A stretch of DNA of 64,000 nucleotides from Hyphomicrobiales bacterium. GTDB taxonomy: Bacteria > Pseudomonadota > Alphaproteobacteria > Rhizobiales > Rhizobiaceae. Positions 2,918 through 28,649 of the stretch are shown one piece after another. Numbering within the stretch: position 1 is the stretch's first letter; every line of letters starts with the position of its first letter. Made by a program: the position numbers and the translations under genes. Location: the NCBI GenBank assembly GCA_900472175.1, contig UCHD01000025.1:1-64000 (forward strand), read 5' to 3'. The notes under the pieces are model-generated. The model saw nothing but the letters and a program-made list of their open reading frames with translations. It did not search any database and was not told the DNA's origin.

Positions 2918-2932
2918 GAACGGGTCCCTGCC

Positions 2933-3655: not shown

Positions 3656-3657
3656 GG

Positions 3658-7765: not shown

Positions 7766-7774
7766 GGACTTCAC

Positions 7775-11905: not shown

Positions 11906-12676
11906 CTATTTCGGCTGCGATGGCGTAAAGTTGGCAATCAGCGCGTGGCGTTCGCCCGGATAGATGAGGCGCACATGGGTGACATAGGAGCCGTTGCTCC
12001 ATGTCCGCCGCTCGACCATCAAACACGGTGTTCCACTGGGGATTGCCAAGGCCGCCGCAATCGTCTCATCGGCCGCGATGGCCCGGATCGTATGTTCGGC
12101 CGCACTCCAGGGGACACGGTTCAGGAGCCATGGCCCCGGAGCTTCAACCTCAAAGCTCTCCGCCGCCGCATCCGGTACCGCCGTCAGATTGATCAGGCGC
12201 TGCTCGAAGCAAAATGGCCTCGCACCTCCGAAATGCGTACAGTTTATCTCCAGAATCGAAGCCGTGGCATTGAGGTCGAGCCTGTTTTTATCATCAGCCG
12301 TGCTGCGGCGCCGGGTCTTGCTCAGCAACCGGTAGTCATAGGCTAGCCCAAGCGACTGGACTTCCAGCTTGATGTCGCGAATTTCCAATACGGCCGATTG
12401 CGCCCGTGGCTGGGTGACATAACTTCCCGACTTGCGCCGCCGCTCGATCAAGCCGGTCTTTGCCAGCTGCGTCAGCGCCTTGTTCACGGTCATCCGCGAA
12501 CATTTGTATTGCTCGGCCAGATCCACTTCGAACGGAATGCGGAAGCCCGGCTGCCATTCGCCCGAGAGAATGCGATCCTCGATATCGCCGAGAATACGCT
12601 GATGCAGAGACAGGTCGCCTACACTTTCGGCAAGCGGCCCATCAACAGCCTGATCGATATCCTGCAATTTCACCAA
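11906..12676 (-). CDS. hutC: Histidine utilisation repressor HutC (GntR family)
   Basis: A 256-residue GntR/HutC-family repressor. The winged helix lies at about residues 24-92 (LHQRILGDIEDRILSGEW, CSRMTVNKALTQLAKTGLIERRRKSGSYV) and a UTRA effector domain covers about 105-250, ending VRLIYPGERHALIANF. HutC binds operators in hut promoters and is released by urocanate. It lies 88 bases downstream of hutF on the same strand and is probably co-transcribed with it. A matching operator is at 14161-14176. Confidence 0.93.
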   Translation of the reverse strand: MVKLQDIDQAVDGPLAESVGDLSLHQRILGDIEDRILSGEWQPGFRIPFEVDLAEQYKCSRMTVNKALTQLAKTGLIERRRKSGSYVTQPRAQSAVLEIRDIKLEVQSLGLAYDYRLLSKTRRRSTADDKNRLDLNATASILEINCTHFGGARPFCFEQRLINLTAVPDAAAESFEVEAPGPWLLNRVPWSAAEHTIRAIAADETIAAALAIPSGTPCLMVERRTWSNGSYVTHVRLIYPGERHALIANFTPSQPK

Positions 12677-12764
12677 GGTCTCACCTTCCGCACATCCGGT
12701 TCGGTACTAGCAGCAACTGTGTATCGCCGCTTGCCTGGAAAGACGTGGTAGCGAACCCCGCCGC

Positions 12765-14105
12765 TCAGGCCAACAGTTCACGCATAACGGCACGGAATTT
12801 CGCCGATATTTCATCCCGTTTGTGATGACGCCCGCCTTCGACCTGCTTGCGGCCTGCCACCCAGACAGTGTCAGGTTTCGTGCCATTGGCAAACAGCCAG
12901 GAATCCAGAGCCGCATCCTCCGTGAGATCGCCATCCGGCGCCCGCAGGCTGACGAAATCGGCCGGGTTGCCAATGACTATCCCGGTTTGGCTGCCCATGG
13001 CGATACCGCCGCCATCCACCGCGCCATCAAACAGTGCGCGGCCGGTCGACTCACCGGGGGCCGCCAAAACATTGCGTGAGCGATGCGCCAGACGCTGCGA
13101 GTATTCCAGCTGGCGTAGTTCGTCCGGCAGGCCGATCAGCACGTTCGAATCCGAGCCGATGCCGAATTTGCCACCCGCTTCGCCGAACACGACCGCATTG
13201 AAGGTGCCGTCGCCGAGATTGGCCTCCGTGATCGGGCAAAGGCCGGCAATCGCCTGGCTTTTGGCCATGCGGCGGGTCTCGTCGTCGGTCATGTGAGTGG
13301 CATGGATCAGGCACCAGCGGCCATCGAGCCCGGCATTGTCGAGCAACCATTCGACCGGCCTCGCGCCGGACCATGCGATGCAGTCCTCGACTTCCTTGAC
13401 CTGTTCGGCAACATGAATGTGGATAGGACCCTCCTTTGCCATCGCGACAACGGCCGAAAGCTCATCCGGCGTGACCGCCCGCAGCGAATGCGGCGCAACT
13501 CCAACGCGGCCATCCGGCAGATTCTTGACGGCAGAACGGCAGCCATCCAGCAGCCGCTCGAAGCTCTCGACCGTATTGATGAACCGGCGTTGGCCCTCGT
13601 TTGGTGCCGCGCCGCCAAAGGTCGAGTGCGCGTAGAAAACAGGAAGCAGCGTCAGGCCGATACCTGTGCGCGAAGCTGCCGAAGCGATGCGCTGCGCCAT
13701 TTCGGAGATATCGGCATAGGCATGCCCATTAATATCATGATGCAGATAATGAAACTCGCCGACCCGCGAGAAGCCAGCCTCCAGCATTTCCATATAGAGC
13801 TGGCTGGCAACGGCCTCGGCATGATCCGGCGTCATCGTCAGGGCGAAACGGTACATGACATTGCGCCAGCTCCAGAAGCTGTCGGCGCCGGGGCCGCGCG
13901 TCTCAGCAAGACCAGCCATGCCGCGCTGGAAGGCATGGCTGTGCAGGTTCGACATACCCGGAACAAGAATATCGTGCCGCTCGTCACCCGTTCGCACCGC
14001 GGTGCCCGCCTCGACGGTAGCAATCTGGCCGCCCTCGATCGTCAGCCGTACATCCTTCTGCCATCCCGCCGGCGTCAGAGCCGATTTCACATGAATGCTG
14101 GTCAA
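12765..14105 (-). CDS. hutF: Formimidoylglutamate deiminase
   Basis: A 446-residue amidohydrolase-superfamily enzyme. The metal-binding HSHAFQRGMAGL motif follows PGMSNL at about residues 50-65, and later metal ligands lie in HIHVAEQ and LIHATHM with GIGSDSNVL near residue 320. HutF converts N-formimidoyl-L-glutamate to N-formyl-L-glutamate plus ammonia, the step that defines the five-enzyme histidine pathway with HutG. It is divergent from hutI, sharing a 99-base control region with the putative HutC operator. Length is normal. Confidence 0.94.
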   Translation of the reverse strand: MTSIHVKSALTPAGWQKDVRLTIEGGQIATVEAGTAVRTGDERHDILVPGMSNLHSHAFQRGMAGLAETRGPGADSFWSWRNVMYRFALTMTPDHAEAVASQLYMEMLEAGFSRVGEFHYLHHDINGHAYADISEMAQRIASAASRTGIGLTLLPVFYAHSTFGGAAPNEGQRRFINTVESFERLLDGCRSAVKNLPDGRVGVAPHSLRAVTPDELSAVVAMAKEGPIHIHVAEQVKEVEDCIAWSGARPVEWLLDNAGLDGRWCLIHATHMTDDETRRMAKSQAIAGLCPITEANLGDGTFNAVVFGEAGGKFGIGSDSNVLIGLPDELRQLEYSQRLAHRSRNVLAAPGESTGRALFDGAVDGGGIAMGSQTGIVIGNPADFVSLRAPDGDLTEDAALDSWLFANGTKPDTVWVAGRKQVEGGRHHKRDEISAKFRAVMRELLA

Positions 14106-14160
14106 GGCCTCATCCCTTCCTGACTGCGTTTCTCAAAAAAACCACTTGCGCTCATTTTCT

Positions 14161-14176
14161 TTATGTCTATACATAA
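14161..14176. promoter_or_regulatory. Probable HutC operator
   Basis: An inverted repeat, TTATGT-CTAT-ACATAA, in the hutF-hutI divergent spacer, 29 bases upstream of the hutI ATG. It resembles published HutC sites, which centre on a TGTATATACA-type palindrome. It is well placed to control both hutF-hutC and hutIHGU. Confidence 0.6.
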
Positions 14177-14204
14177 TAGTACGAAAAGGAAAGGCTAGAA
14201 AACC

Positions 14205-15455
14205 ATGTCTTCCATAAAATCGCCGCCAGACAGCTCCCGGCGAACCACCTGTGATCGCCTGTGGCGAAACGCACGGCTTGCCACGCTCAATCCTTCCCTG
14301 CCGGGTCTTGGCCTTGTTGAAGACGGCGTCATTGCGGCTCAGGACGGCCGCATCCTTTTTGCTGGTAATGCGGCAGAACTGCCTTTCCCGATCGAAAGCG
14401 CCGCCGAGATCATCGATTGCGGCGGCCGCTGGATCACGCCGGGCCTGATCGACTGCCACACACATCTGGTTCATGCCGGTGACCGCGCCAACGAATTCGA
14501 AATGCGGCTTGCAGGCGCAACCTATGAAGAAGTCGCCCGTGCCGGTGGCGGCATCGTGTCCTCGGTCCGGTCGCTACGTAAAGCGAGCGAAGATGAGCTT
14601 GTCGCCCAGTCGCTTCCCCGTCTCGACGCCTTGATGGCTGAAGGTGTGACCACCGTCGAAATCAAATCCGGCTACGGTCTCGATCTCGAAAACGAAGCCA
14701 AGGCGCTACGCGCCGCGCGCCGTCTTGGTGAAGAACGCGACGTGGCTGTTCGCACCACCTTTCTTGGTGCACATGCGTTGCCGCCGGAATTCAAGGGCGA
14801 CAAGGCCGGTTACGTGGCCAAGGTCGTTGGCGAAATGCTGCCTGCCATTGCAGCCGAGGGTCTGGCCGATGCGGTTGATGGCTTCTGCGAAGGCATCGCC
14901 TTCTCGACCGATGAGATGCGGCTGGTCTTCGATGCAGCCAAGGCCCATGGCCTGCCGGTCAAGCTGCACGCCGATCAGCTCTCCAACCTGCATGGCGCAG
15001 CACTTGCGGCCGAGTATGGTGCGCTGTCGGCCGACCATCTTGAATATACCGATGAAGCCGGGGCAGAGGCGATGGCAAAAAGCGGCACCGTCGCTGTCAT
15101 TCTGCCCGGTGCCTTCTATTTCATCCGCGAAACCAAGAAGCCGCCAATTGATCTTTTCCGCAAGGCAGGCGTCGCGATGGCCATCGCCACCGATAACAAT
15201 CCTGGCACCTCGCCGCTGACATCGCTGCTTTTGACGATGAACATGGCCGCGACACTGTTTGGCATGACGGTCACCGAGTGCATCGCCGGCGTGACCCGCG
15301 AAGCAGCAAGAGCGCTCGGCCTCGTCGACGAAGTGGGGACTCTGGAACCCGGAAAATGGGCCGATTTCGCCATCTGGAACATCGAGCGACCGGCCGAACT
15401 CGTCTATCGCATGGGCTTCAATCCGCTCCATGCACGCGTCCGCAACGGACATTGA
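14205..15455 (+). CDS. hutI: Imidazolonepropionase
   Basis: A 416-residue amidohydrolase. [19 protein letters not shown] at about residues 85-103 carries the metal-binding HxH pair, EIKSGYGLD is the substrate-binding segment, and LHADQLSN and ATDNNPGT supply further ligands. It hydrolyses 4-imidazolone-5-propanoate to N-formimidoylglutamate. A ribosome site (AAGGAAAGG) precedes the ATG. It is first in the plus-strand hut operon hutI-hutH-hutG-hutU, with hutH 47 bases downstream. Confidence 0.95.
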
Positions 15456-15502
15456 TTTTAAAGCACGCGGTTGGGAGACCCGTGCATTGGTGAGGACTGC
15501 AC

Positions 15503-17038
15503 ATGACCCTTATTCTGCAACCGGGCTCCGTCCCGCTTTCGACCCTCGAAACCATCTACTGGACCGGAGAGCCCGCCCGTCTCGATCCGTCCTTCGACAA
15601 GGGCATCGAGAAGGCCGCCGCCCGCATCGCCGAGATCGCCGCTGGCAACGCGCCGGTCTACGGTATCAATACCGGCTTCGGTAAACTCGCATCGATCAAG
15701 ATCGATGCCGCCGATGTCGCCACCCTGCAGCGCAATCTGATCCTGTCGCATTGCTGCGGCGTCGGGCAGCCGCTGGCTGAAAACGTTGTCCGGCTGATCA
15801 TGGCGCTGAAGCTCGTTTCGCTCGGCCGCGGCGCCTCCGGTGTCCGGCTCGAACTCGTCCGGCTGATCGAAGGCATGCTCGAAAATGGCGTCATCCCGGT
15901 CATCCCGGAAAAGGGCTCCGTCGGTGCTTCCGGCGATCTGGCACCACTCGCCCATATGGCAGCGGTGATGATGGGTGAAGGCGAAGCCTTCTTCAACGGC
16001 GAACGACTGGACGGCCGCACCGCGCTTGAGCGTGCCGGCCTGACGCCGGTCGTCCTTGCCGCCAAGGAAGGTCTGGCGCTGATCAACGGCACCCAGACAT
16101 CGACTGCGCTGGCGCTCGCCGGCCTGTTCCGCGCCCACCGCGCCGCCCAGTCCGCTCTGATTACCGGTGCGCTTTCGACCGACGCCGCCATGGGCTCGTC
16201 GGCACCGTTCCATCCGGATATCCATACGCTGCGCGGCCACAAAGGCCAGATCGACGCCGCTGCGGCCCTGCGCGGCCTGCTCAAGGGCTCGGTCATCCGC
16301 GAAAGCCACATCGAAGGCGACGAGCGCGTCCAGGACCCCTACTGCATCCGCTGCCAGCCGCAGGTCGACGGCGCCTGCCTTGATCTCTTGCGCTCGGTTG
16401 CCCGCACGCTTGAAATCGAAGCCAACGCCGTCACCGACAATCCGCTGGTACTCTCGGACAATTCCGTCGTTTCAGGCGGCAATTTCCATGCCGAGCCGGT
16501 GGCCTTCGCCGCTGACCAGATTGCCCTTGCTATTTGCGAAATCGGCGCGATCTCGCAGCGCCGTATTGCGCTTCTGGTCGATCCGGCCCTCTCCTACGGC
16601 CTGCCGGCGTTCCTCGCTAAAAAGCCAGGCCTCAACTCGGGCCTGATGATTGCCGAAGTCACCTCGGCAGCCCTGATGTCGGAAAACAAGCAGATGTCGC
16701 ACCCGGCCTCGGTCGATTCGACACCGACCTCGGCCAACCAGGAAGACCATGTCTCGATGGCCTGCCACGGTGCCCGCCGCCTGCTGCAGATGACCGACAA
16801 CCTCTTCGCCATCGTCGGCATCGAGGCGCTGACCGCCGCCCAAGGCATCGACTTCCGCGCTCCGCTCGTGACCAGCCCGGAGCTGACAAATGCCATCGCG
16901 GCAATCCGCAAGGTCGTCCCGACGCTGGACGTCGATCGCTATATGGCAACCGACCTCAAGGCAGCCAGCGACCTTATTGCCACCGGCGCGCTGAACGCCG
17001 CCGTGTCGACTGGCATTCTCCCGGTTTTGGAGGCCTGA
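15503..17038 (+). CDS. hutH: Histidine ammonia-lyase
   Basis: A 511-residue enzyme with all the usual catalytic features: Tyr53 in YGINTGFG, His83 in LILSHCCG, the Ala-Ser-Gly triad at residues 142-144 that cyclises into the MIO cofactor, [16 protein letters not shown] and the ANQEDHVSM glutamate. It deaminates L-histidine to trans-urocanate. It is followed by hutG after a single base. It is the functional contrast for the MIO-less paralogue at 22953-24446. Confidence 0.96.
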
Positions 17039-17039
17039 C

Positions 17040-17854
17040 ATGAGCGTTTTTGAAGTCAAGCAGGGCACATCGCCGATCATTCTCGGCTTTCCGCATACCG
17101 GTACCGATGTCCCGCCCGCCATCTGGGAGCGACTGAACGACACCGGACGGCTGCTGACCGATACCGACTGGCACATCCATCATCTCTATGAAGGCCTGTT
17201 GCCGGATGTAACGACGGTTCGCGCCACCTTCCATCGCTATGTTCTCGATGCCAACCGCGATCCGGAAGGCGTCAGCCTTTATCCCGGCCAGAACACTACC
17301 GGGCTTATTCCGGAAACCGACTTCGACGGCGTTGCAATCTGGAATGACGGCGAAGAGCCGACCGAAGCCGATATCGCCGCCCGCCTCGCCGATTTCCACG
17401 CGCCCTATCATGCGGCACTCTTGGCCGAAATCGAACGGGTGAAGGCGATCCACGGCATCGCCGTACTCTATGATTGCCATTCGATCCGGTCGGATATCCC
17501 GTTCCTGTTTGAAGGCACATTGCCCGATTTCAACGTCGGCACCGATATGGGCAAGACGTGCAATCCGGCCATTCAGGATGCTACTGTCGATGTCGTTCTG
17601 AACGCCGACGGCTATACCAGCATCCTCAACGGCCGCTTCAAGGGCGGATGGACGACCCGTCATTATAGTGATCAGGAAAACGGCGTTCACACGATCCAGA
17701 TGGAGTTGGCACAGTCGACGCATCTGAGCACCGAAGCCCCGCCCTTTGCCTATGACGAGACCAAGGCAGCCAAGCTTCGCATTCACCTCAAAGAGATTCT
17801 AACGCGCATCGAAACAACGGCGCTGACATTGGCACACACCAAAAGGGGAACAAA

Positions 17855-17858
<4 letters not shown>
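17040..17858 (+). CDS. hutG: N-formylglutamate deformylase
   Basis: A 272-residue member of the N-formylglutamate amidohydrolase family. It has [10 protein letters not shown] at residues 16-25, [10 protein letters not shown] near 42, DANRDPEG near 71 and [17 protein letters not shown] near 142. It converts N-formyl-L-glutamate to glutamate and formate, completing the HutF branch. It starts one base after hutH and its stop overlaps the hutU start as ATGA, so all three are translationally linked. Confidence 0.93.
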
Positions 17859-19528
<1,670 letters not shown>

Positions 19529-19532
19529 GGTT

Positions 19533-19925
19533 TTAGGTCAGCTGATATTTCGGAAGCCCGGGATAGCGCAGGACCATATCGTCAACCGATATGAGAGGAA
19601 CCCCTTCGATAATCGCCTGAGCAATCAGGATGCGATCGAAGGGGTCCTTGTGAAGCAACGGCAACCCGGCAATTGCGATTGCGTGTTCGCTGTTGATCGG
19701 CAATTCGATGTATCCATTTTCGAGAAGACGATAACGCAGAACGAAAGGATCGGTGCGAAAGTCATCACGTGCCAGGCCGTGCTTGATCGCTGTTTCCCAG
19801 ATGCTGGCCGGACTGAACAGAAGCTCATTGCTCGTATCTTCGATGAGTAGCCTGACGTCAGCTGGCAGCAGATCGATATCGCCCGCCGCCCAGATCAGGA
19901 TATGTGTATCGAGGAGAAATCTCAT
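19533..19925 (-). CDS. PIN-domain ribonuclease toxin (VapC family)
   Basis: A 130-residue PIN-domain protein. The first acidic residue is in MRFLLDTHILIW (Asp6), Glu43 in ASIWETAIK is the second, Asp94 in KDPFDRILIAQA the third, and SVDD near residue 114 completes the metal site. Such toxins cleave RNA until neutralised. The start overlaps the antitoxin stop as ATGA. The pair is inserted, in reverse orientation, between hutU and hutD. Confidence 0.88.
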   Translation of the reverse strand: MRFLLDTHILIWAAGDIDLLPADVRLLIEDTSNELLFSPASIWETAIKHGLARDDFRTDPFVLRYRLLENGYIELPINSEHAIAIAGLPLLHKDPFDRILIAQAIIEGVPLISVDDMVLRYPGLPKYQLT

Positions 19926-20185
19926 CGATCTTTGAACTTGTCGGGATTGCCATAAAACATCTCTTCGATTTCATCGGCCATCATCCTATCGAAATTATCA
20001 GGCACGATGACTTCACCCTTCATGAAACCGATCCGGCGTTTTTTCGGCATTTCGGTTTCATCCAGTGGCACGAGCTTTCCAATCGGCTTGCCGGCCTTGG
20101 CAATGATGAAGGACTCGCCCTTCGACACTTTCTCCATCAAGCGTGACAAATGCGTCTTTGCCTCGTGAATATTGACCGTTTCCAT
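19922..20185 (-). CDS. Phd/YefM-family antitoxin
   Basis: An 87-residue protein beginning METVNIHEAKTHLSRLMEKV, the DNA-binding N-terminus of Phd/YefM antitoxins, followed by GKPIGKLVPL and an acidic C-terminus that should wrap the toxin. A second ATG one codon upstream (20188) is possible, but the ribosome site GGAGG is better spaced for 20185. It is co-transcribed with the PIN toxin and probably represses its own promoter. Confidence 0.87.
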   Translation of the reverse strand: METVNIHEAKTHLSRLMEKVSKGESFIIAKAGKPIGKLVPLDETEMPKKRRIGFMKGEVIVPDNFDRMMADEIEEMFYGNPDKFKDR

Positions 20186-20203
20186 CATCGCCCTCCTTCG
20201 GAC

Positions 20204-20215
20204 TTAGTCTACTAA
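20204..20215. promoter_or_regulatory. Candidate operator of the toxin-antitoxin pair
   Basis: TTAGT-CT-ACTAA, a 12-base palindrome 19 bases upstream of the antitoxin ATG, embedded in two direct copies of ACTTAGTC (20202-20209 and 20216-20223). Repeats of this kind upstream of a Phd-type antitoxin are usual autoregulatory sites. It also lies just ahead of hutD on the other strand. Confidence 0.5.
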
Positions 20216-20242
20216 ACTTAGTCCACGCCATAGAGGTTTACA

Positions 20243-20842
20243 ATGCGCGACGAACAGACATCCTTTCCCAGCCAACTTCACGTGCTGAAGGCCACCAATC
20301 ATCGCCGCATGCCGTGGAAAAATGGTGGCGGTGAGACTGTCGAGATTGCTATTTTCCCGCCGGAGGCCGATCTCTCTGCGTTCGGCTGGCGCGTCAGCAT
20401 GGCAACAGTTGCCAGCGATGGCCCGTTTTCAGTGTTTCCCGGTATAGACCGCACCCTGTCGATCCTTGAGGGCGAAGGTATGGAACTGGATATTGCCGGT
20501 CGAAAGCCAGTCGTATTGACCCGGGCGTCCGAACCACTCGCGTTTCCGGCCGATGCAGCAACCTCGGCACGGCTGGTATCTGGCACCATCGTCGATCTCA
20601 ACGTGATGACCCGCCGGGGGCAGTGGACACATCAGGTGGAGCGGCGCGTGTTTGAAGGCGACCATCCTCTCGATGCCGAAGGCGGCGTAACGATGGTTCT
20701 GTCGCTTGGCAATCTGCGGATCGACAGCGCTGAGCACGCCGAGGAACTGACCCGGCTCGACTGCGCCATCATCGAAGGCCCTTGCCGCATCAGCTCGGAT
20801 ATGCCGGTTGAAGCTTATCTGATCCGCATCAGCTCCGTTTAA
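20243..20842 (+). CDS. hutD: HutD family protein
   Basis: A 199-residue cupin-like protein with the HutD signature RMPWKNGGGET at residues 22-32, then WRVSMATVASDGPFSVFPGIDR and LEGEGMELDI. HutD proteins accompany hut genes and have been proposed to set an upper limit on hut expression, perhaps by binding urocanate; their chemistry is not settled. The gene is separated from hutU by the reversed toxin-antitoxin pair, so it probably needs its own promoter in 20186-20242. It ends tail-to-tail with the ureohydrolase gene, overlapping by four bases. Confidence 0.88.
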   Translation: MRDEQTSFPSQLHVLKATNHRRMPWKNGGGETVEIAIFPPEADLSAFGWRVSMATVASDGPFSVFPGIDRTLSILEGEGMELDIAGRKPVVLTRASEPLAFPADAATSARLVSGTIVDLNVMTRRGQWTHQVERRVFEGDHPLDAEGGVTMVLSLGNLRIDSAEHAEELTRLDCAIIEGPCRISSDMPVEAYLIRISSV

Positions 20843-21777
20843 CGGCCATTCTTACGGGCCAGATTGCCCAGCACGTGGCAGATCAAGCGGCCGACCACAG
20901 TCGCGGTCATTCCGTTGACATCGGCCTTCGGTTGAAACTCGACGATCGAAAAGCCAGCGAGTGTGCGGCCCGTCATTGCCGAGGCGATGAGATCGGTAAC
21001 TTCCTCAAGCCATAGACCTCCGGGTGACATTGCGTTGACGCCCGGGCAGATCGACGGGTCCAGCGCATCGACATCGATATGGATGAGCAATGCACCATCA
21101 CGCGGAATGGCGTCGGCGATCTCCACAACGCCGTTTGCCCGAACCTGGCGCACCGTAACCAACCGCGAACCCCAGCGTTTCGCCGTCTCGACCTCTTCGC
21201 GGCGCGCACTGCCGACGGCGCGAAGGCCGACCTGGGTCATGGAACGCACGAACGGAAGCTCGGAGGCGCGCCGCATCGTGCTGGAATAGCCGAGCGTTTC
21301 ATCGCCAATCCGGTCGCGCCAGTCGATATGGGCATCGATCTGCAGGATATGAAGCGTTTCAGCATCCGAGAAACCGCGCATGAAGGGAATGGCGGCGGAA
21401 TCATCGCCACCGATCAGAAGCGGGATGGCGCCCGCTGCCCGGATGTTTCGCGTGACAGCCTCGATCGCCGTTCGATTGCCGACATTGTCATTATGGCGAG
21501 TAACGACGTCGCCCAAGTCCACGACATCCAAAGCGCCATCGTTCAACAACGGCCCATCGAAATCGAAGTCCCAATGGTCGACATGCACGGATGCCTCCGT
21601 GATCGCCCGGCGGACTGCATCCGGACCTCTCACGCCTGAAAGGTCTTGAATGGCATGGGGATAGGTCGTTCCGTGTTCCGCTCCAAAAATCGCAATGGAA
21701 CCTGGCTGGGGCTCCGTTGCGGCGGGCAGGCCAAGGAAGGTTTCGGCTGCAGGCTCAAGTGTGTAGGTCATGCTCAT
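20839..21777 (-). CDS. Ureohydrolase (arginase/agmatinase family), substrate unknown
   Basis: A 312-residue metalloenzyme of the arginase fold. Metal-site motifs are GGDDS at residues 123-127, DAHIDWRD at 148-155 and DVDALDP at 235-241. In arginases and agmatinases the first motif is normally GGDHS, so a metal-binding His is Asp here; I recall the same variant in some rhizobial agmatinase-like proteins. Family members hydrolyse C-N bonds in guanidino or formimidoyl groups. Its ATG overlaps the stop of the solA-like gene by four bases, making it last in an operon with a transporter, a lyase paralogue and an N-methyl amino acid oxidase. A formimidoyl- or guanidino-acid substrate is likely, unproven. 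Confidence 0.85.
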   Translation of the reverse strand: MSMTYTLEPAAETFLGLPAATEPQPGSIAIFGAEHGTTYPHAIQDLSGVRGPDAVRRAITEASVHVDHWDFDFDGPLLNDGALDVVDLGDVVTRHNDNVGNRTAIEAVTRNIRAAGAIPLLIGGDDSAAIPFMRGFSDAETLHILQIDAHIDWRDRIGDETLGYSSTMRRASELPFVRSMTQVGLRAVGSARREEVETAKRWGSRLVTVRQVRANGVVEIADAIPRDGALLIHIDVDALDPSICPGVNAMSPGGLWLEEVTDLIASAMTGRTLAGFSIVEFQPKADVNGMTATVVGRLICHVLGNLARKNGR

Positions 21778-22931
21778 GCAGCCCGCGCTGCCAGAAATCG
21801 GTCCATTGCCGCGAACGAAAACGCTCCAATCGGCAGATCGGTGCCGCCATCCAGAGCCAAATCAGCCAGGATTTCGCCGACGACGCTGGTGAACTTGAAC
21901 CCGTGGCCGGAGCAGGGCGATGCTACGACGATGCGATTATCACCCGGCAACAGGTCGAGCAGGAAATCCTCGCTCGGCAGCATCGTGTAGCGGCAGGTGG
22001 TGGAGCGCACGCGCAATCCGGCGGCGGACGGCAGCCGGCGCTTGATGAAACTGTCGAGCAGATCCGTATCCTTGTCGTTGACAGCCGGATTGGGCTGGTT
22101 CGGATCGATCGGTTCGCGGAAATGCGCGTGACGGCCAACCTTGACACCATCTACGCCGATTGCTGGGAAACCAAAGAACGAGCCATTCTCGCCCTCGTCG
22201 CGAATAAACACCGGCATGCGCTGCGGCATCGTGACGAAACCATCCGTCGGCTGGTACCAGGAGACCACCTGCTTGATCGGCACTGCATGATCGCGCAAGT
22301 CAGGTACCAGTTCGCCGATCCAGGAGCCCGTTGCCACGATCACCTTGCTGGCGGCGTAACGTCCGGTATCAGATACGATGACTACGCCACCCTCGCCCGG
22401 CTCGATCGCTGTCACCTTCTCGCCGAAATGCAACACCGCACCGTCGGCGGCGGCCAGCTTGAGATGCCCCATGACCGCCGCTTCTGGCCGCAGATAGCCG
22501 CCCTGCGGGTCGAGCAATGCAATCTCGTCACCATCCAGCGAAAACACCGGAAAACGGCGGCGCATCTCGTTTGGATCCAGCGTTTCCAGCGGCAGGTTGT
22601 GCAGCGCGCAGCTCTTCTTCGTACCGCTGACAATCTTGCTGTCGGGCTTGCCGATCTGCAGGACGCCGGTGATCGTGAGGATATCCTCGCGCAGCCGCGC
22701 TTCCAGCGCCCGCCAATTGGCATAGGCGCGCTGCAGCAGCGGCACGTACGATGGATCCTCGAAATAGCCGAGCCGGATCAAACGGCTATCGCCATGCGAC
22801 GAACTCAGCGCATGGGCCGGATAGTAGGCATCGATGCCGATTGCCTTGACGCCGCGCGCTGCCAGATGCGCGATGGCGGCACTCCCCATGGCGCCAAGGC
22901 CGACAACAGCAACGTCGAAATGGGCGGTCAT
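21774..22931 (-). CDS. FAD-dependent N-methyl amino acid oxidase (SolA / monomeric sarcosine oxidase family)
   Basis: A 385-residue flavoprotein. The FAD motif VVGLGAMGSAA is at about residues 9-19, SSHGDSRLIRLGYFEDPSYVPL follows at 48-70, CRYTMLPSEDF near residue 325 contains the Cys that anchors FAD covalently in MSOX and MTOX, and CSGHGFKF is near the end. Such enzymes oxidise secondary amines such as sarcosine or N-methyltryptophan, releasing formaldehyde and peroxide. It lies 21 bases after the lyase paralogue and overlaps the ureohydrolase start. The operon context suggests an N-methylated imported compound, but the natural substrate cannot be read. Confidence 0.87.
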   Translation of the reverse strand: MTAHFDVAVVGLGAMGSAAIAHLAARGVKAIGIDAYYPAHALSSSHGDSRLIRLGYFEDPSYVPLLQRAYANWRALEARLREDILTITGVLQIGKPDSKIVSGTKKSCALHNLPLETLDPNEMRRRFPVFSLDGDEIALLDPQGGYLRPEAAVMGHLKLAAADGAVLHFGEKVTAIEPGEGGVVIVSDTGRYAASKVIVATGSWIGELVPDLRDHAVPIKQVVSWYQPTDGFVTMPQRMPVFIRDEGENGSFFGFPAIGVDGVKVGRHAHFREPIDPNQPNPAVNDKDTDLLDSFIKRRLPSAAGLRVRSTTCRYTMLPSEDFLLDLLPGDNRIVVASPCSGHGFKFTSVVGEILADLALDGGTDLPIGAFSFAAMDRFLAARAA

Positions 22932-22952
22932 GGCAGTATCCTTCCGGGAATT

Positions 22953-24446
22953 TCAGATGTGTGGAGGCGGTGACCTGCGCAGGAGATCGCGGGCCTTTTC
23001 CAAATCCCAGCCGAGCGGCCGGTCGTCGGCATAGGTTGGCACATCGGCGCGGATATGGCGATAGAGCACATCGGTTCCCTTAGCCCGCGGCGCAACGCCG
23101 GATTTGAAATCCTGTGCCTGTGCGGCGGCGGCAAACTCGATGCCGAATATCTGTTCGGCATTGTCGATGACCGCGAGCAGCTTGTTGGCGGCCGCCGTCG
23201 GATGCCCGAGAAAGTCCTCCTGCAATGCCGACGTAATGCCACCATCAAGGCTGGCCGGGGCGCCAAGACGCCGGTTTTCCGCAGCAAGCGCCGCTGCCGT
23301 ATATTGCGCGATCATGAAGCCGGAACCGGCACCCGGATCGGCGGCAAGAAATGCGGGCAGGCCGCTGACCAGCGGATTGACGAGACGGTCGATCCGGCGC
23401 TCGCTCATCATCGAAATCTGGACAATCGAGATGGCGAGGCTATCCAGAGCCTGGCCAAGCGCCGGGGCGACGGCATGTGCCTCGGAGGACACTACCGGTG
23501 CTTCCGGCGTGCCCGAGACAGCCGGATTGTCGGTGACGGACGCCAGTTCCCGATTCATGACGGCACTTGCAAAATCGAACACATCCCGCCCGGCACCATG
23601 GGCATGCGGGACGGAACGTATGCTCAGGGCATCCTGTGTGCGCGCGCCCTTGGCGGCATCGATCAATCCGCTCCCAGCCAGCCGCTCGCGCAAGATCCTG
23701 CCGACCTTCTCGATCCCCAGAGACTTGCGAAGCGCGAGCACATCAGCGTCAAAGGCTACCATCTGGCAGCCAAGTGCTTCCATCGTCAGTGCGGCAATGG
23801 CGTCGGCCCAATCCAGCAGCCGCTCCGCCCGCAGTAAGGCGACCGCTCCAAGCCCCATGGAGCAGGCCGTGCCATTGACGAGGCTCAGGCCTTCCTTCGC
23901 CTGCAAAACAAGTGGCGCAACGCCAAGCGTCTTCAACGCCTCGGCACCAGTCACCGGATTCCCCTTCAACCGGGCCCTGCCCTCGCCGATCAGCGCCAGC
24001 GCGATATGCGCATTATGGCTGAGATATCCCGCCGACCCTTTGGATGGCACTTCCGGGATGCAGTCTTTGCGCAGAAACACCTGCAGCAGTTCAACGATCG
24101 CGGGACGCACGCCCGAATGGCCATGAGAAAAATTGGCGATCTGGGCTGCGATGATCGCGCGGACTTCGCGCGCCTCCAGTAACGGCCCGACACCACAGGC
24201 GTGGCTAAGGATGATATTGCGCGACAAGCGGCTCTGCGACGGGCGATCCACCACGGTATCGGCGAGAGCGCCAACACCCGTGTTGACCCCATATGCCCGC
24301 ACGCCGCTTTCGACGATCGCCGAGACGATGCGGCTGGCCGTTTCAACCCGCTGTCTGGCAGCATTGGAAAGAGCAAGCGTTGCGCCACCCGCAACCGCCG
24401 CCACGGCGCGCCAGTCGAGCGCGCTCTCAAGCACGATGTCCTGCAC
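22953..24446 (-). CDS. Histidine ammonia-lyase paralogue lacking the MIO triad
   Basis: A 497-residue HAL/PAL-family protein that aligns along the full length of HutH but has Tyr-Leu-Ser at residues 141-143 (bases 24018-24026) where HutH has Ala-Ser-Gly, after an intact KGSAG lead-in. The triad normally cyclises to the MIO electrophile, so standard lyase chemistry is not expected. Other active-site positions are kept: Tyr52 in YGVNTG, His82 in LSHACG, Asn191 in LVNGT, Gln271, Arg277 and Glu410. The active-site Tyr of QDPYCIR is Leu274. The GTG start follows the hisP-type stop closely with a GGAGG ribosome site. Retention of the pocket suggests ligand binding, an altered reaction or a regulatory role. 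Confidence 0.85.
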   Translation of the reverse strand: MQDIVLESALDWRAVAAVAGGATLALSNAARQRVETASRIVSAIVESGVRAYGVNTGVGALADTVVDRPSQSRLSRNIILSHACGVGPLLEAREVRAIIAAQIANFSHGHSGVRPAIVELLQVFLRKDCIPEVPSKGSAGYLSHNAHIALALIGEGRARLKGNPVTGAEALKTLGVAPLVLQAKEGLSLVNGTACSMGLGAVALLRAERLLDWADAIAALTMEALGCQMVAFDADVLALRKSLGIEKVGRILRERLAGSGLIDAAKGARTQDALSIRSVPHAHGAGRDVFDFASAVMNRELASVTDNPAVSGTPEAPVVSSEAHAVAPALGQALDSLAISIVQISMMSERRIDRLVNPLVSGLPAFLAADPGAGSGFMIAQYTAAALAAENRRLGAPASLDGGITSALQEDFLGHPTAAANKLLAVIDNAEQIFGIEFAAAAQAQDFKSGVAPRAKGTDVLYRHIRADVPTYADDRPLGWDLEKARDLLRRSPPPHI

Positions 24447-24448
24447 GA

Positions 24449-25255
24449 TCAGCCTCCGAAATTGCCGATAAACTGGCGGAAGCTGGGCGAACCGCCGGAA
24501 CCGAACAATTCGTCCGGCGCGCCGTCACTGTCGATCTCGCCGGACTTCATGAAGATCACCCGGTTGGAAACGTTTCGGGCAAAGCTCATTTCGTGGGTGA
24601 CGACCAGCATGGTCATGCCCTCTTCGGCCAGCGAGCGCATGACACGCAACACTTCGCCGACCAACTCCGGATCGAGCGCCGAGGTCGGCTCGTCAAACAG
24701 CATGACCTTCGGTTTCATCGCCAGCGAGCGGGCGATCGCTGCGCGCTGCTGCTGGCCACCGGACAGATGCGCCGGATAGGCGTGGCGCTTTTCCGCGATA
24801 CCGACCTTTTCCAAGAGCGCTTCGGCTTCAGCGATACATTCGGCGCGGGGGCGCTTCAGCACATGCACCGGCCCCTCGATGACATTCTCGAGGATGGTCA
24901 TGTGGGACCAGAGATTGAACGACTGGAAAACCATGCCGAGTTCGGAACGGATCCGGTCCACCTGCTTGCGGTTCGCCGGCACGTTCTTGCCGCCCCGCTG
25001 CTGCATCTGAATCAGTTCGCCATCGACGGAAATCTCGCCGTGATCGGCGATTTCCAACAGATTGATACAGCGCAGGAAGGTCGATTTGCCCGAGCCACTG
25101 GCGCCGAGCAGTGAAATGACGTCGCCGTCGCGAGCCTCGAGCGAGATGCCGCGCAACACTTCATGCGTGCCAAAACTCTTGCGGATATTGCGGACGGAAA
25201 GCCGGGTCGTGCCTGCCATGGTCGTTCCAGTCTGGTTGAGGGTCGCGGAAGTCAT
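24449..25255 (-). CDS. Polar amino acid ABC transporter ATP-binding protein (HisP type)
   Basis: A 268-residue ATPase with Walker [10 protein letters not shown] near residue 52, signature [16 protein letters not shown] near 164, Walker [15 protein letters not shown] and the switch His in [10 protein letters not shown]. It energises uptake by the two permeases and binding protein encoded upstream. Its ATG overlaps the permease stop as ATGA, which decides the start over an internal Met13. It is followed three bases later by the MIO-less lyase paralogue, tying transport to that catabolic set. Confidence 0.92.
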
Positions 25256-25962
25256 CGTTGCGGAACCGGAAAAAGCGGTGCCGCGCGGCGATGCGGGGTC
25301 AGCTTGTATTCAAGCAGCGCCATGGCCTGCAGGATGATGAAGTTGAGAATGAGATAGATCGCGGCGGCACAGAGGAAGACTTCCATCGTGCGGTATGTCT
25401 GCGAGATCAACCGTTGGGCGACGCCGGTCACTTCCCAGACGGTGACAAGGCTGGCAAGCGCCGTCGATTTCACCATCATCACCACTTCCGTGGAGTAAGC
25501 GGGCAGGGCGTGGCGGAATGCGATCGGCGCCAAGATACGGCGGGTCAAAAGGAAGCCCGACATGCCAACGGACCGCGCCGCCTCGATTTCCTTGGCCGGG
25601 ATGGCACGCAGGCCGAAGCGGAAGATTTCTGCCGAATAACCGGCCGTGCAAAGCGCCAGCGACAGGACGGCACAAACGAAGGGCTCGCGCAACGCCGGCC
25701 ACAGGAAGCTGTAGCGGATGAAACCGAACTGGCCGAGACCGTAGAAGATCAGGAACATCTGGATCAGAAGCGGCGAGCCGCGAAAGATGAAGATGTAGCC
25801 CTTGGCAAAGTTGCGGGCTGCGGCATTGCCGCTGACGCGCATCCAGACGATCAGAAGCGCCAGGATGCCGCCAAAGAAGACGGAAAGGGAAAACAGCGCC
25901 AGCGTCATCGGCAGAGCGGCCAGCAGCGTTTTCATGGTCTCGAACATGAAGGCGATGTCCAT
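25252..25962 (-). CDS. Polar amino acid ABC transporter permease (HisM type)
   Basis: A 236-residue inner-membrane protein with about five hydrophobic segments. The family EAA loop appears as [24 protein letters not shown] near residue 135. It pairs with the HisQ-type permease as the membrane channel of the transporter. It starts 15 bases after the HisQ-type stop and overlaps the ATPase start. Confidence 0.92.
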
Positions 25963-25977
25963 CGCGCGTCTCCTTGA

Positions 25978-26700
25978 TCAGGCCTGGCCGACACTGGTCG
26001 GCATGCTGCGATTGGCGCGCTTTTCAGCACTGTTGAAAATCCGGTCGGAGAAGCTGGTCATGACCAGATAGAGGCAGCCGCCGACAATGAAGAACAGGAA
26101 ATGCTGCCGCGTCGATCCGGCCGCGACCTGACTGGTGCGCATCAGGTCGGCAAGCCCGGTCACCGAAACCAGTGCCGAGTCCTTGAGGCTGAGCTGCCAG
26201 ACATTGCCGATGCCCGGAATGGCGAACCGGAACACCTGCGGCCCGATGATGCGGCGGAAGCGCAAGCCCCGGTTCATGCCGATCGCCTGCGCCGCCTCCA
26301 GCTCCCCCTTGGGGATGGCCAGATACGCACCGCGAAACACCTCGGCCTGATAGGCACCGGAGATGATGCCGACGGCAAGCGCACCGGCTGCAAAGGACGG
26401 AAGGCCGAGAAAGCCCTCATAACCCATCGCCGTGCCGATGGCGGTGACCGCACTCGATCCACCGAAATAGACGAGATAAATGATCAGCAACTCGGGAACA
26501 CCACGGAAGACGGTGGTGTAGGTTCCGCCGATCACCTTCAGGATCCGGCTGCCCGAGAGCTTCGCCCAGGCAATCAGCGAGCCGAGAATAGCCCCGATCA
26601 CCAATGCGACACCCGTGACGCACAGTGTCATCAACGCTGCCACGAGCAGCAGTCCGCCCCACCCGGTGGGGCCAAATCCTATCATTTGAAGTAAAGACAT
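25978..26700 (-). CDS. Polar amino acid ABC transporter permease (HisQ type)
   Basis: A 240-residue membrane protein with several hydrophobic helices, the sequence GTYTTVFRGVPELLIIY near residue 63 and an EAA loop, AIPKGELEAAQAIGMNRGLRFRRI, near residue 129. These place it with histidine, lysine-arginine-ornithine and octopine permeases. It follows the binding-protein gene after a 145-base gap, a spacing common where the binding protein is made in excess. No clear attenuating hairpin was confirmed there. Confidence 0.91.
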   Translation of the reverse strand: MSLLQMIGFGPTGWGGLLLVAALMTLCVTGVALVIGAILGSLIAWAKLSGSRILKVIGGTYTTVFRGVPELLIIYLVYFGGSSAVTAIGTAMGYEGFLGLPSFAAGALAVGIISGAYQAEVFRGAYLAIPKGELEAAQAIGMNRGLRFRRIIGPQVFRFAIPGIGNVWQLSLKDSALVSVTGLADLMRTSQVAAGSTRQHFLFFIVGGCLYLVMTSFSDRIFNSAEKRANRSMPTSVGQA

Positions 26701-26845
26701 GCCGCAGGCGTCCCGTCGTTCCCGGCCAGGCCGGCTTCCCGATCTTCAAGTGGATGTGGAAGGCCGCGCCTCATGTGAGAAAGCAGCCCACCGCAGCAAG
26801 TGTGCCCGCCGCCAGCAAAATAGCAAGCGGCAGGAAAACCTGAAA

Positions 26846-27691
26846 TCAGGGAGTAACGTCGGTCTTGAACCACTTCATCGACAAGGTCTTGATCGTGCCG
26901 TCGGCAAGTGCCGCCTCGATCGCCTTGTTGAGCATGTCGCGCAGATCGGTATCGGCCTGACGGATGCCAAGGCCTTCACCGCTGCCGAAGATCGTGCCGC
27001 CGATTTCAGGACCGGTGAAGCCGAGCGAACCATTAGCCTTCTCGAATGCCGAGATCAGATAGACGGCATCGTCGAATACCAGGTCGATACGGCCGCTCTC
27101 GAGATCGAGGTCGCGCTCAGCGCCGGTCTTGTATTCGCGAACCGTGGCGATATCGCCGAAATTGTCATAGACGAACTTGGAATAGACGGTCGCAGCCTGG
27201 ATACCGATGGTCTTGCCGGCAAACGCCGCCTTCATCGCCTCGACTTCCTTGACGCCGGTCGCACCCGGATCGAGCTTGATGACCGTTCCGGTTCCGGCAG
27301 CATTGGCCAGCGGGCTATCCTTCAGCGTCGCAAAGGCTGCGTGCGTATGGGCATAGGGGATGGTGAAGTCGATGATCTTCTTGCGCTCTTCGGTGATCGA
27401 CAAAGCGTCCATGATGACATCGAACTTGCCGGCATTGAGCGCCGGGATCATGCCGTCCCAATCGGAAGCAACCAGCGTGCACTCGACCTTCATGTGCTCG
27501 CAGAGATACTTGGCCAGCTCCGGCTCGAAACCGCCGAGCGTGCCGTCCGGATTGGTGAGGTTCCAGGGCGCATAGGCGCCTTCAAGCGTAATGGTTACAG
27601 TCTTCCAGTCCTTGGCCTGCGCCAACGGAGCGGAAAGCGTTGCAAATGCGACGGCGCCAGCCATCAGAAATTTTGACAGGTTCATGTTCAC
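26846..27691 (-). CDS. Periplasmic polar amino acid-binding protein (HisJ/LAO type)
   Basis: A 281-residue solute-binding protein. The N-terminus has a signal peptide ending SAPLAQA, with cleavage before KDWKTVTI. Mature features are LEGAYAPWNLTNPDGTLGGFEPEL, DWDGMIPALNAGKFDVIMDALSIT and ERKKIIDFTIPY, typical of cluster-3 amino acid-binding proteins. The first ATG has an AGAGGA ribosome site at good spacing. It is first in the operon and divergent from the HutC-like repressor. The family binds basic amino acids, opines or histidine; the neighbours hint at a modified histidine or a guanidino amino acid. Confidence 0.92.
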   Translation of the reverse strand: MNMNLSKFLMAGAVAFATLSAPLAQAKDWKTVTITLEGAYAPWNLTNPDGTLGGFEPELAKYLCEHMKVECTLVASDWDGMIPALNAGKFDVIMDALSITEERKKIIDFTIPYAHTHAAFATLKDSPLANAAGTGTVIKLDPGATGVKEVEAMKAAFAGKTIGIQAATVYSKFVYDNFGDIATVREYKTGAERDLDLESGRIDLVFDDAVYLISAFEKANGSLGFTGPEIGGTIFGSGEGLGIRQADTDLRDMLNKAIEAALADGTIKTLSMKWFKTDVTP

Positions 27692-27795
27692 GTTCCTCTG
27701 AGGTTTATCTTCAACAACGTCCGCCGATCTGCGCCGGCTTCACAAATATCTTGATGGATAACGCGGCAAAAAATGCCTCTGAACATCCATGTTGT

Positions 27796-27809
27796 ATATG
27801 GTACCATAT
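27796..27809. promoter_or_regulatory. Probable operator for the HutC-like repressor
   Basis: A perfect 14-base palindrome, ATATGG-TA-CCATAT, in the 190-base divergent spacer between the binding-protein gene and the GntR gene. A related half site, ATGGTAT, follows at 27820-27826. Its sequence differs from the hutF-hutI operator (14161-14176), suggesting the two HutC-family repressors are insulated from each other. Confidence 0.55.
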
Positions 27810-27881
27810 GCTAATTTTTATGGTATGCAAGTAGGCGGCCGCATTTGAATGCAAAATTAATTCCGCCCAGGGAATGAGCAT

Positions 27882-28649
27882 ATGAAACGAAGCAATACCC
27901 CGAAAGCTCCGTTAAAATGGGACGCCAACGACAACGACGGCTGGCCGCTTTATGCCGGCGTCAAGCAGATGATCCTTGACCGCATCCAGAGCGGCGAATG
28001 GCCACCAAAACACCGGGTGCCATCGGAGAACGAACTGGTTGCGGAACTCGGCGTCAGCAAGATGACGGCCAACCGGGCCTTGAGGGAACTGGCGAGCGAG
28101 GGCGAGCTCGTGCGCATCCAGGGGGTCGGCTCTTTCGTTGCCGAGCGTAAAGGCTACTCCGAACTGTTCGAAGTCCGCAATATCGCCGAGGAGATCGACG
28201 AGAGAGGCCATACGCATCAGGCATCCGTGGTGGTTTTAGCGCAGGAAACTGCCGCGCCGGATGTTGCCGATGCCCTCGGGCTACCGATCGGCGCACCGGT
28301 GTTTCATTCACTGATCGTCCACAGCGAAAACGGCGTTCCGGTCCAGATCGAAGACCGCTTCGTCAACCCCGAAGCGGCGCCAGGCTACCTGGAACAGGAC
28401 TTTACGGCGCAAACGCCGAATGCCTATTTGACAGCAGAAGCCCCCTTGAGCGGGTCCGAACATATTGTCGAAGCCACCATGCCACAACCATGGGAATGCA
28501 AGCTGCTGGTCATCCTGCGCACCGAACCCTGCCTGCTGATTCGCCGCCGCACATGGTCATCGAAGCGGGCCGTGTCCTTTGCACGGCTAGTTTATCCCGG
28601 CAACCGGTATCGTCTGGAATCACGCAACGGAAAGATGAGCGACGAGTAG
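27882..28649 (+). CDS. HutC-like GntR-family repressor of the adjacent operon
   Basis: A 255-residue GntR protein of the HutC subfamily. The winged helix lies at about residues 25-90 (VKQMILDRIQSGEWPPKHRVP, VSKMTANRALRELASEGELVR) and a UTRA domain at about 100-248, ending VSFARLVYPGNRYRLES. It is a paralogue of the hutC product at 11906-12676. It probably represses the divergent transporter-lyase-oxidase-ureohydrolase operon through the palindrome at 27796-27809; the inducer is presumably a pathway intermediate. Confidence 0.88.
   Translation: MKRSNTPKAPLKWDANDNDGWPLYAGVKQMILDRIQSGEWPPKHRVPSENELVAELGVSKMTANRALRELASEGELVRIQGVGSFVAERKGYSELFEVRNIAEEIDERGHTHQASVVVLAQETAAPDVADALGLPIGAPVFHSLIVHSENGVPVQIEDRFVNPEAAPGYLEQDFTAQTPNAYLTAEAPLSGSEHIVEATMPQPWECKLLVILRTEPCLLIRRRTWSSKRAVSFARLVYPGNRYRLESRNGKMSDE

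Follow-up and report, generated by a model that had tools for sequence, protein, structure and literature searches.

The window analysed here, a stretch of 64,000 nucleotides, raises the question of what a probable seven-gene operon beside ordinary hut genes takes up and degrades, with a central enzyme related to histidine ammonia-lyase (HAL, HutH) that lacks the cofactor MIO. We judge it an even call that the operon serves the uptake and breakdown of an N-methylated histidine, most likely hercynine (N-alpha-trimethylhistidine), by an MIO-free lyase that would yield urocanate and trimethylamine. The features are as follows.

190..11001: type III glutamine synthetase-like gene, glutamate-synthase-like set and sarcosine oxidase-like subunits (TIGR03105 681, TIGR01373 724 and TIGR01372 1452 bits, all over cut-off)
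11906..20842: ordinary hut genes, hutC (-), hutF (-), hutI, hutH with MIO triad, hutG, hutU, hutD (+); all but hutD over NCBIfam cut-off, hutD over Pfam cut-off
20839..21777, minus: arginase-fold ureohydrolase, GGDDS for GGDHS (PF00491 155 bits)
21774..22931, minus: FAD N-methyl amino acid oxidase, MSOX/MTOX family (PRK11259 418 bits, cut-off 257)
22953..24446, minus: MIO-less HutH-type lyase, proposed hercynine (N-methylhistidine) amine-lyase (PF00221 461 bits; HAL fold)
24449..25255, minus: ABC ATPase, HisP type (332 bits, under cut-off 466)
25252..25962, minus: ABC permease, ArtM/HisM type (best match 177 bits, under its cut-off 248)
25978..26700, minus: ABC permease, HisQ type (best match 186 bits, under its cut-off 319)
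26846..27691, minus: periplasmic binding protein, HisJ/LAO/OccJ type (best PDB match octopine-binding OccJ 5ore, 212 bits)
27791..27810: conserved predicted operator region, CATATGGTACCATATACAAC (minus-strand reading), surrounding a perfect palindrome
27803..27830, minus: possible promoter read from the sequence, TTGCAT 27825-27830, 16 nt spacer, TATGGT 27803-27808; overlaps the operator
27882..28649, plus: HutC-type GntR/UTRA repressor, second copy (TIGR02018 301 bits, cut-off 220)

All eight genes of the original prediction were confirmed in place, the seven on the minus strand spanning 20839-27691. The tightly coupled row that it described, divergent from a HutC paralogue, is also what we found. 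The permease and ATPase genes overlap by 4 bases, as do the oxidase and ureohydrolase genes, and most gaps are 2-21 bases (2 at the transporter/enzyme boundary, 15 between the permeases, 21 between lyase and oxidase), with 145 bases between the binding protein and the first permease. The binding protein begins with GTG, but translation may really start at an in-frame ATG, 27685. The genes for the ureohydrolase and HutD (20243-20842) converge, and their ends overlap by 4 bases. From spacing and synteny the seven genes look like one operon, divergent from the HutC-type repressor gene, and would be carried on a single transcript.

The lyase shares with HutH its fold, most active-site residues, its gene neighbourhood and 37% identity to the window's own HutH (15503-17038). 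However, it scores 451 bits in the HutH equivalog test TIGR01225, under the cut-off of 539, against 735 for the true HutH. The MIO-forming Ala-Ser-Gly triad is deleted, the stretch aligned with true HutH reading GSAGY---LSHNAH. A pattern search showed the triad to be absent from 126 of 127 lyase places, and inspection by eye showed the same for the remaining one, from Priestia, so that the predicted MIO-less HutH paralogue is borne out in every close relative read. Tyr280 is replaced by Leu and Phe329 by Ala in all 126 relatives (119 distinct). Tyr52, His82, Asn191 and Glu410 are kept in 125-126 of the 126; their equivalents Tyr53, His83, Asn195 and Glu414 are named as essential to HAL in PMC11432326. 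Loss of the triad with retention of the HAL catalytic residues argues for hercynine: the paralogue would eliminate the amine with HAL residues for binding and acid-base catalysis, and it could do without an electrophilic cofactor, since trimethylamine leaves readily.

Ergothionase (ergothioneine trimethylamine-lyase; Treponema denticola 6s7j) also has the HAL fold without MIO and Leu at the Tyr280 position, and PMC13405746 describes it as an MIO-less HAL relative that releases trimethylamine. The window's lyase would be expected to eliminate its amine without cofactor in the same manner. The two differ in that ergothionase lost the triad through another deletion and in that our lyase is linked to an ordinary HutU, not to thiourocanate hydratase. 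The lyase is closer to HAL in both sequence and fold (structure match 35% to P. putida HAL, 28% to ergothionase), which counts against the hercynine reading.

Uptake would fall to the operon's own ABC importer. The octopine/nopaline importers OccJQMP and NocT contain the closest solved binding proteins, and in R. etli the transporter is annotated as an importer of this type. However, both keto-acid signatures, Ser-Asn-Thr-Ala-Asn of OccJ and Gly-Met-Ser-His-Ser of NocT, are absent from the window's binding protein, which has Ser-Ala-Val-Tyr-Asp there, as do 97-98 of 98 relatives. By comparison with a table in PMC5740067, the site retains the Arg, Ser and Asp with which LAO holds an amino acid and has Ala, Val and Tyr near the ammonium, which supports the hercynine reading. 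Fifteen site positions are fixed in 97-98 of 98 relatives (89 distinct). The acidic side-chain pocket (Glu37, Asp95) would suit a guanidinium too, a point against hercynine.

The best-surviving alternative places another substituent on the alpha nitrogen: N-methyl- or N,N-dimethylhistidine, with release of methylamine or dimethylamine, or a histidine opine such as histopine. We consider this unlikely. The oxidase belongs to a family that acts on N-alkyl amino acids, methylamine would directly feed the genes at 190-11001, and the transporter has the resemblance and R. etli annotation noted above. However, the keto-acid signatures are missing, the lyase clade includes the lyase of an S-methylergothioneine-type operon, whose substrate is trimethylated, and without MIO a primary or secondary amine is harder to expel.

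It is quite unlikely that the paralogue is no lyase at all and instead acts as an isomerase, has a binding or regulatory role or is in decay. The loss of the MIO triad, Tyr280 and Phe329 would fit such a role, but 125-126 of 126 relatives retain the catalytic Tyr, His, Asn, Arg and Glu, the lyase accompanies the transporter in records from alpha-, beta- and gammaproteobacteria, and ergothionase shows that an MIO-less HAL relative can be a lyase.

Returning to hercynine, synteny points to urocanate as the product. In Aureimonas the lyase replaces HutH in the position between hutF and hutI, and in Priestia it is grouped with hutU, hutI and a HutG-like ureohydrolase; neither plasmid carries another PF00221 gene. 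We found hutU in 51 of 51 lyase-positive genomes (in one split over two contigs) compared with 192 of 246 others, the latter count being one not rechecked for split genes. Both observations argue that the lyase makes urocanate, for which the hut genes are the predicted sink and which their enzymes would degrade to glutamate. The hutXWV locus of Sinorhizobium meliloti, read in strain Ak57, shares the HutC-type repressor, hutF, a same-clade lyase and a related operator (16/20); it differs in its transporter family, which is ProU-type, and its lyase gene is not followed by an oxidase gene.

Of the 28 distinct loci that lack the window's transporter, 16 have a ProU-type transporter set ahead of the lyase, a point for the hercynine reading, and the ProU-type ATPase passes the betaine/proline/choline-family cut-off in both cases scanned. 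The two transporter types could also mean different substrates in different branches, which counts against a single hercynine reading. On A. tumefaciens pAt15955 the only PF00221 gene encodes a lyase of the window's clade (54% identical), in an operon-like row of S-methylergothioneine type (NF058531, NF058532) with S-methylthiourocanate hydratase, S-methylthiohydantoin desulfurase, ErtD and ErtE (all over cut-off) and a betaine-type, ProU-type transporter. This row differs from ours in having S-methylthiourocanate enzymes beside the lyase and no hut. No HutC is annotated in the stretches read, where IclR-type and GntR-type regulators are found, the latter without a match to any HutC model. The presence of a same-clade lyase in such an operon, together with the release of trimethylamine by ergothionase, argues for trimethylamine as the leaving group.

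The pAt15955 operon and the MIO-less state of ergothionase would also fit ergothioneine or S-methylergothioneine itself as the lyase substrate, which we regard as very unlikely. The HutU proteins of the window, Aureimonas and Priestia fall under the thiourocanate and S-methylthiourocanate cut-offs; the window's is an ordinary urocanate hydratase, and those of Aureimonas and Priestia pass the urocanate hydratase cut-off. The partners expected in an ergothionase operon (thiourocanate hydratase, thiohydantoin desulfurase, ErtD and ErtE) do not accompany the window's lyase, whose neighbouring HutU scores 687 bits against the thiourocanate hydratase cut-off of 930. In addition, this genome has a separate ergothioneine (Ert) set on contig C23 with its own lyase.

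If hercynine is the substrate, Tmm, Tdm and Dmm would convert the trimethylamine to methylamine, which the genes in the left part of the window would turn into glutamate. This genome carries genes of the Tmm, Tdm and Dmm types, and the genes at 190-11001 look like the N-methylglutamate (methylamine) route; the glutamate-synthase-like genes there match only weakly or not at all. A link to trimethylamine is further suggested by one locus (L063) where genes for a TMAO permease, Tdm and Tmm lie next to the lyase-oxidase genes, and by the presence of Tmm in 23 of 51 lyase-positive genomes versus 34 of 246 others. Within genera the Tmm-lyase link is weak (p 0.03, 0.09 with correction; seven genera, only genomes listed), and of 23 genomes, 4 have Tdm no more than 30 kb from the lyase, three of these 4 belonging to one genus. 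Neither Tmm nor Tdm matched at the thresholds used in 28 of the 51, and trimethylamine would therefore be waste or have another fate there.

Among 92 distinct loci with the window's transporter, a HutC-type repressor gene is found in 91, an oxidase directly behind the lyase in 61, and a ureohydrolase in 12, whose lyases are at least 79% identical to the window's. In 31 loci there is neither an oxidase directly behind the lyase nor a ureohydrolase, so the function of the lyase has to be explained without these two; the operons of R. etli and R. johnstonii end with the lyase. By synteny the conserved core of the locus is repressor, transporter and lyase. Of the predicted co-occurrence of lyase, oxidase and ureohydrolase, the first two recur and all three are confined to the window's own group; outside it, the prediction's own refuting result, no co-occurrence of the three, therefore holds.

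The N-methyl amino acid oxidase was correctly predicted, as judged by its PRK11259 score and intact catalytic residues: Arg, Lys, His and Cys are kept in 65-67 of 67 relatives (61 distinct), and Tyr254 and Met245 vary among the 67. The covalent-FAD Cys and active-site Lys, His and Arg of monomeric sarcosine oxidase and N-methyltryptophan oxidase are kept; the difference is the linkage to the lyase. Its role would be to strip methyl groups from partly methylated histidines, leaving histidine as substrate of the true HutH; with hercynine as sole substrate the oxidase has no easy place, which counts against that reading.

The ureohydrolase falls under the cut-off of every NCBIfam model matched, including formimidoylglutamase (102 versus 229 bits) and agmatinase (105 versus 174 bits). 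Its arginase-fold metal-ligand set is incomplete, one His being Asp in 14 of 14 relatives (11 distinct) with the other ligands kept in 13-14 of 14. It looks like an accessory added in the window's own group, where it may be an amidine hydrolase, perhaps a formimidoylglutamase. As a core member, which the original prediction made it, the ureohydrolase is not supported, nor consequently is the proposed guanidino or formimidoyl relative of arginine or histidine. We regard that substrate as highly improbable: the 4-base overlap with the oxidase gene, the acidic binding pocket and the HutG-like ureohydrolase, though only 26% identical, beside the Priestia lyase speak for it, but the rarity of the gene, the substituted metal ligand, the operons that end with the lyase and an existing HutF for formimidoylglutamate speak against it. 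A histidine relative, also proposed, is supported, and hercynine, one of several compounds suggested for testing, is now the leading candidate, with links to betaines, trimethylamine genes and ergothionase-type chemistry that lay outside that prediction.

Ring-methylated N-tau-methylhistidine, whose bacterial degradation is the subject of a paper cited in PMC11432326, and whose N-methyl leftover the oxidase or ureohydrolase would handle after hut-like enzymes, is a highly improbable substrate as well, since the reaction expels ammonia, for which HAL uses MIO, and HAL itself is reported there to accept the compound, so no MIO-less copy would be needed.

The repressor is distinct from the HutC copy of the hut cluster (11906-12676). 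Upstream lies the perfect palindrome ATATGGTACCATAT at 27796-27809. Such a palindromic site (up to 3 mismatches) appeared in 31 of 100 window-sized shuffles and so is not rare by chance. However, 94 of 95 distinct intergenic regions match the surrounding 20-base site at no fewer than 17 of its 20 positions, therefore the palindrome is not chance. This conservation and the TIGR02018 score confirm the predicted HutC paralogue with its own palindrome. The 8-mer CTTGCATA at the possible promoter is found in 85 of 95 distinct regions; a consensus promoter scan of 19400-28900 listed no promoter. Sharing of the operator with the genome's own hut genes was not detected in 160-base upstream stretches, where the best scores were 12/20 before hutI (29 tested) and 11/20 before hutC (12 tested) and random stretches mostly score 9-12 of 20. 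The repressor presumably binds this site and would respond to the substrate or urocanate.

This operon, conserved in soil bacteria related to rhizobia, probably imports a methylated histidine and splits it to urocanate and a methylated amine. More tentatively, and short of an even call, we propose a dedicated and so far undescribed hercynine pathway, in which the MIO-free HutH homologue would be a hercynine trimethylamine-lyase joining trimethylamine metabolism to hut, from Rhizobiaceae to Burkholderia and Erwinia and perhaps Bacillota, hidden under the name histidine ammonia-lyase. If so, soil and root bacteria would hold an MIO-less HAL branch besides ergothionase, and hercynine, which is made by fungi, would supply them with nitrogen and would give rise to trimethylamine in a way that has gone unrecognised. 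The lyase would also offer a clear test of amine elimination by HAL-fold enzymes without cofactor. Of the 40 plasmid matches listed, 38 are named histidine ammonia-lyase and 2 are unnamed; that name is contradicted by the missing cofactor triad.

As a minor observation, the Priestia relative of the lyase passes the TIGR01225 cut-off for HutH.

All seven minus-strand genes of the original prediction and their divergent regulator were found where it had placed them and belong to the families it had named. The tight coupling it described was also confirmed: the overlaps and gaps are compatible with one transcription unit, save for 145 bases after the binding-protein gene.

190-11001: type III glutamine synthetase-like gene, glutamate-synthase-like set and sarcosine oxidase-like subunits
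20839-27691, minus strand: binding protein, two permeases, ATPase, HutH-type lyase lacking the cofactor MIO, oxidase and ureohydrolase
27882-28649, plus strand: HutC-type repressor

Ordinary hut genes lie directly left of the operon, with the end of hutD abutting the ureohydrolase gene. We take the genes at 190-11001, farther left, as the N-methylglutamate route, by which methylamine would be used; for the sarcosine oxidase-like pair, either enzyme is possible.

We consider the chances about even that this is an operon for hercynine (N-alpha-trimethylhistidine), in which an MIO-free lyase would release trimethylamine and feed the hut pathway. Hercynine occurs in fungi, and the argument for amine elimination without MIO is one from the leaving group. 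No paper about the breakdown of hercynine or a lyase acting on it was recognised among the matches listed from the open-access literature, which does not prove novelty.

The lyase was searched for in 297 Rhizobiaceae genomes, the window's own among them. Close relatives (57-100% identity) were found in 51, and the next-best matches, among those listed, reached at most 42%. An alignment of 28 close relatives, three HutH proteins and an ergothionase-like one showed that a three-residue deletion removes the Ala-Ser-Gly triad that makes MIO in all 28 lyases. The triad site reads GS[A/V]GYL in 126 of 127 lyase places of the fetched loci, and GSLGYL in Priestia. The catalytic Tyr, His, Asn, Gln, Arg and Glu are retained in 125-126 of 126 relatives, while histidine ammonia-lyase (HAL) Tyr280 is replaced by Leu and Phe329 by Ala in 126/126 (119 of these rows are distinct). 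HAL and MSOX residue numbering beyond that given in the cited papers is our assumption. According to PMC11432326, HAL activity drops 100- to 2200-fold when Phe329 becomes Ala, and MIO fails to form when it becomes Gly; in Geobacillus HAL, the essential residues include Tyr, His, Asn and Glu. Taken with these mutants, the residue pattern suggests that the window lyase should not be an ordinary ammonia-lyase yet should retain the requirements of an amine-lyase. Its AlphaFold model (mean pLDDT 87, pTM 0.90; under 50 at residues 402-413, which include Glu410) matched HAL best, with ergothionase at rank 18 (TM 0.89). The window lyase resembles ergothionase in its proposed working but not in genomic context, and it falls outside the HutH equivalog in both cofactor triad and score.

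In a first tree the Priestia lyase grouped with HutH, beside a very long ergothionase-like branch. With the ergothionase-like row removed, all 33 MIO-less rows fell on one side of one branch (100/100). The Priestia branch was still long and the tree held no Bacillota HutH, so MIO loss in Priestia may be independent. The Priestia protein (locus L161, 9905-11443) scores over the curated HutH equivalog cut-off (592 vs 539); since it lacks the triad, that model probably misnames it.

To place the lyase in its neighbourhoods we used 128 loci: the window, eight plasmid loci, 39 of the 40 selected from the Rhizobiaceae search and, out of 577 named-genome relatives, the best 80. The synteny count retained 120 distinct lyase sequences, mostly from Rhizobium, and left out L049 (ordinary HutH only) and the Priestia locus (under the 50% limit). 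The window-type transporter is present in 92 of the 120; 91 of these also have a HutC-like gene, and 43 have two or more hut genes no farther than 10.5 kb away. Compared across genomes as the original prediction had proposed, the neighbourhood is conserved in part: the oxidase immediately follows the lyase in 61 of these 92 loci, but the ureohydrolase is present in only 12, a distribution that rules it out as a core enzyme. The other 28 loci have a HutC-like gene in 20 cases and hut genes in nine, and in 16 a betaine-family (ProU-type) transporter set lies upstream of the lyase. The ProU-type label comes from two of the 16, through their annotation and a ProV-family score that exceeds the cut-off in each; matches to ProX and ProW stay under cut-off there. 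The Sinorhizobium meliloti ProU-type locus is presumably the one named hutXWV. MIO-less relatives with the same kind of transporter were also found on one Burkholderia and one Erwinia plasmid. On the latter (Erwinia sp. E602, a gammaproteobacterium) a cytosine-permease-like gene comes after the transporter genes and lyase (GSVGYL; 536.5 vs the HutH cut-off of 539). Close to the lyase, but on the other strand, R. croatiense (L136, 12999-15560) and R. etli (L154, 15019-17580) have a gene for an 853-aa sarcosine/dimethylglycine dehydrogenase-like protein.

The lyase product is taken as urocanate on the basis of hut contexts. In Aureimonas the lyase lies between hutF and hutI, followed by hutG, hutU and hutD, and the plasmid search found no other PF00221 gene beside it. 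The Priestia lyase, the sole PF00221 gene found on its plasmid, is grouped with hutU, hutI and a gene for a HutG-like ureohydrolase (213 bits against a cut-off of 229). HutU of both organisms scores as urocanate hydratase and under the thiourocanate cut-offs. Furthermore, hutU is present in 51/51 lyase-positive genomes vs 192/246 others, with a recheck for split genes covering the lyase-positive miss only; in lyase-positive genome G011 hutU is divided between two contigs. Since the R. etli and R. johnstonii loci consist of repressor, transporter and lyase only, the product must be usable by the cell without the oxidase.

Among 67 oxidase relatives, 65-67 retain the covalent-FAD Cys and the catalytic Lys, His and Arg, and the enzyme would demethylate partly methylated histidines. 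The ureohydrolase (20839-21777) matches formimidoylglutamase and agmatinase equally weakly and has GGDDS for GGDHS, the His metal ligand being Asp in 14/14 relatives (11 distinct).

Ergothioneine is an unlikely substrate of the window operon, since the same genome has a separate Ert gene set and an ordinary HutU. That ergothioneine-utilisation set (locus L162, 10507-17835; contig C23, about 81.5-88.8 kb) includes an ergothionase-like lyase, with ErtD, ErtE, thiohydantoin desulfurase and thiourocanate hydratase over cut-off and a carnitine dehydrogenase gene nearby. Uptake of octopine or nopaline is ruled out by the binding-site residues. Sixteen ligand-site positions, tabled for the octopine-, nopaline- and LAO-binding proteins (OccJ, NocT, LAO) in PMC5740067, were mapped by alignment, and 15 of them are invariant across 97-98 of 98 relatives (89 distinct). 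Retained are the three LAO residues (Arg, Ser and Asp) binding the ligand's carboxylate and amino group; LAO Ser92, Thr121 and Gln122, which lie close to the latter, are replaced by Ala, Val and Tyr. Judged from these residues, the site would fit a methylated ammonium.

The palindrome assigned to the repressor lies in a 20-base operator-like site, at least 17 bases of which are conserved in 94 of 95 distinct regions. A weaker site (16 or 17 of 20) was found in 8 of 59 hutF upstream regions, all eight at ProU-type loci, and the tested hutI and hutC genes showed none upstream. One operator common to the operon and the hut regulon is thus unsupported, except where hutF belongs to a ProU-type operon. 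A second partial operator-like site, GTTGTATAGGGAACC (28674-28688), lies between the repressor gene and a TetR-type gene facing it.

On another contig of the window genome, genes for a TMAO permease, TMAO demethylase (Tdm) and trimethylamine monooxygenase (Tmm; over cut-off) stand together with dimethylamine monooxygenase-type genes. One related genome (L063) has the lyase and oxidase genes next to those for the permease, demethylase and monooxygenase. Tmm is present in 23/51 lyase-positive vs 34/246 other genomes (p 2e-6, kinship ignored); with genera as strata, and only genomes from the lyase search list, the association is weakly supported (p 0.03; 0.09 after correction). The same 23 lyase-positive genomes have Tdm (vs 43/246 others), which in four of them, three of one genus, lies no more than 30 kb from the lyase. 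At the thresholds used, 28 of the 51 have neither, which counts against the hercynine reading.

On A. tumefaciens pAt15955 a lyase that falls inside the window's clade in the trees is the sole PF00221 gene. Its row of genes also codes for S-methylthiourocanate hydratase, S-methylthiohydantoin desulfurase, ErtD and ErtE, all four over cut-off, and a ProU-type transporter. To judge by these neighbours, the natural substrate of this lyase is probably S-methylated ergothioneine, a trimethylated histidine. This S-methylergothioneine-type operon (L160 and L195, 670-683 kb) further codes for an S/N-oxide reductase of the BisC family (968 bits against a cut-off of 1018) and has a GST-like gene.
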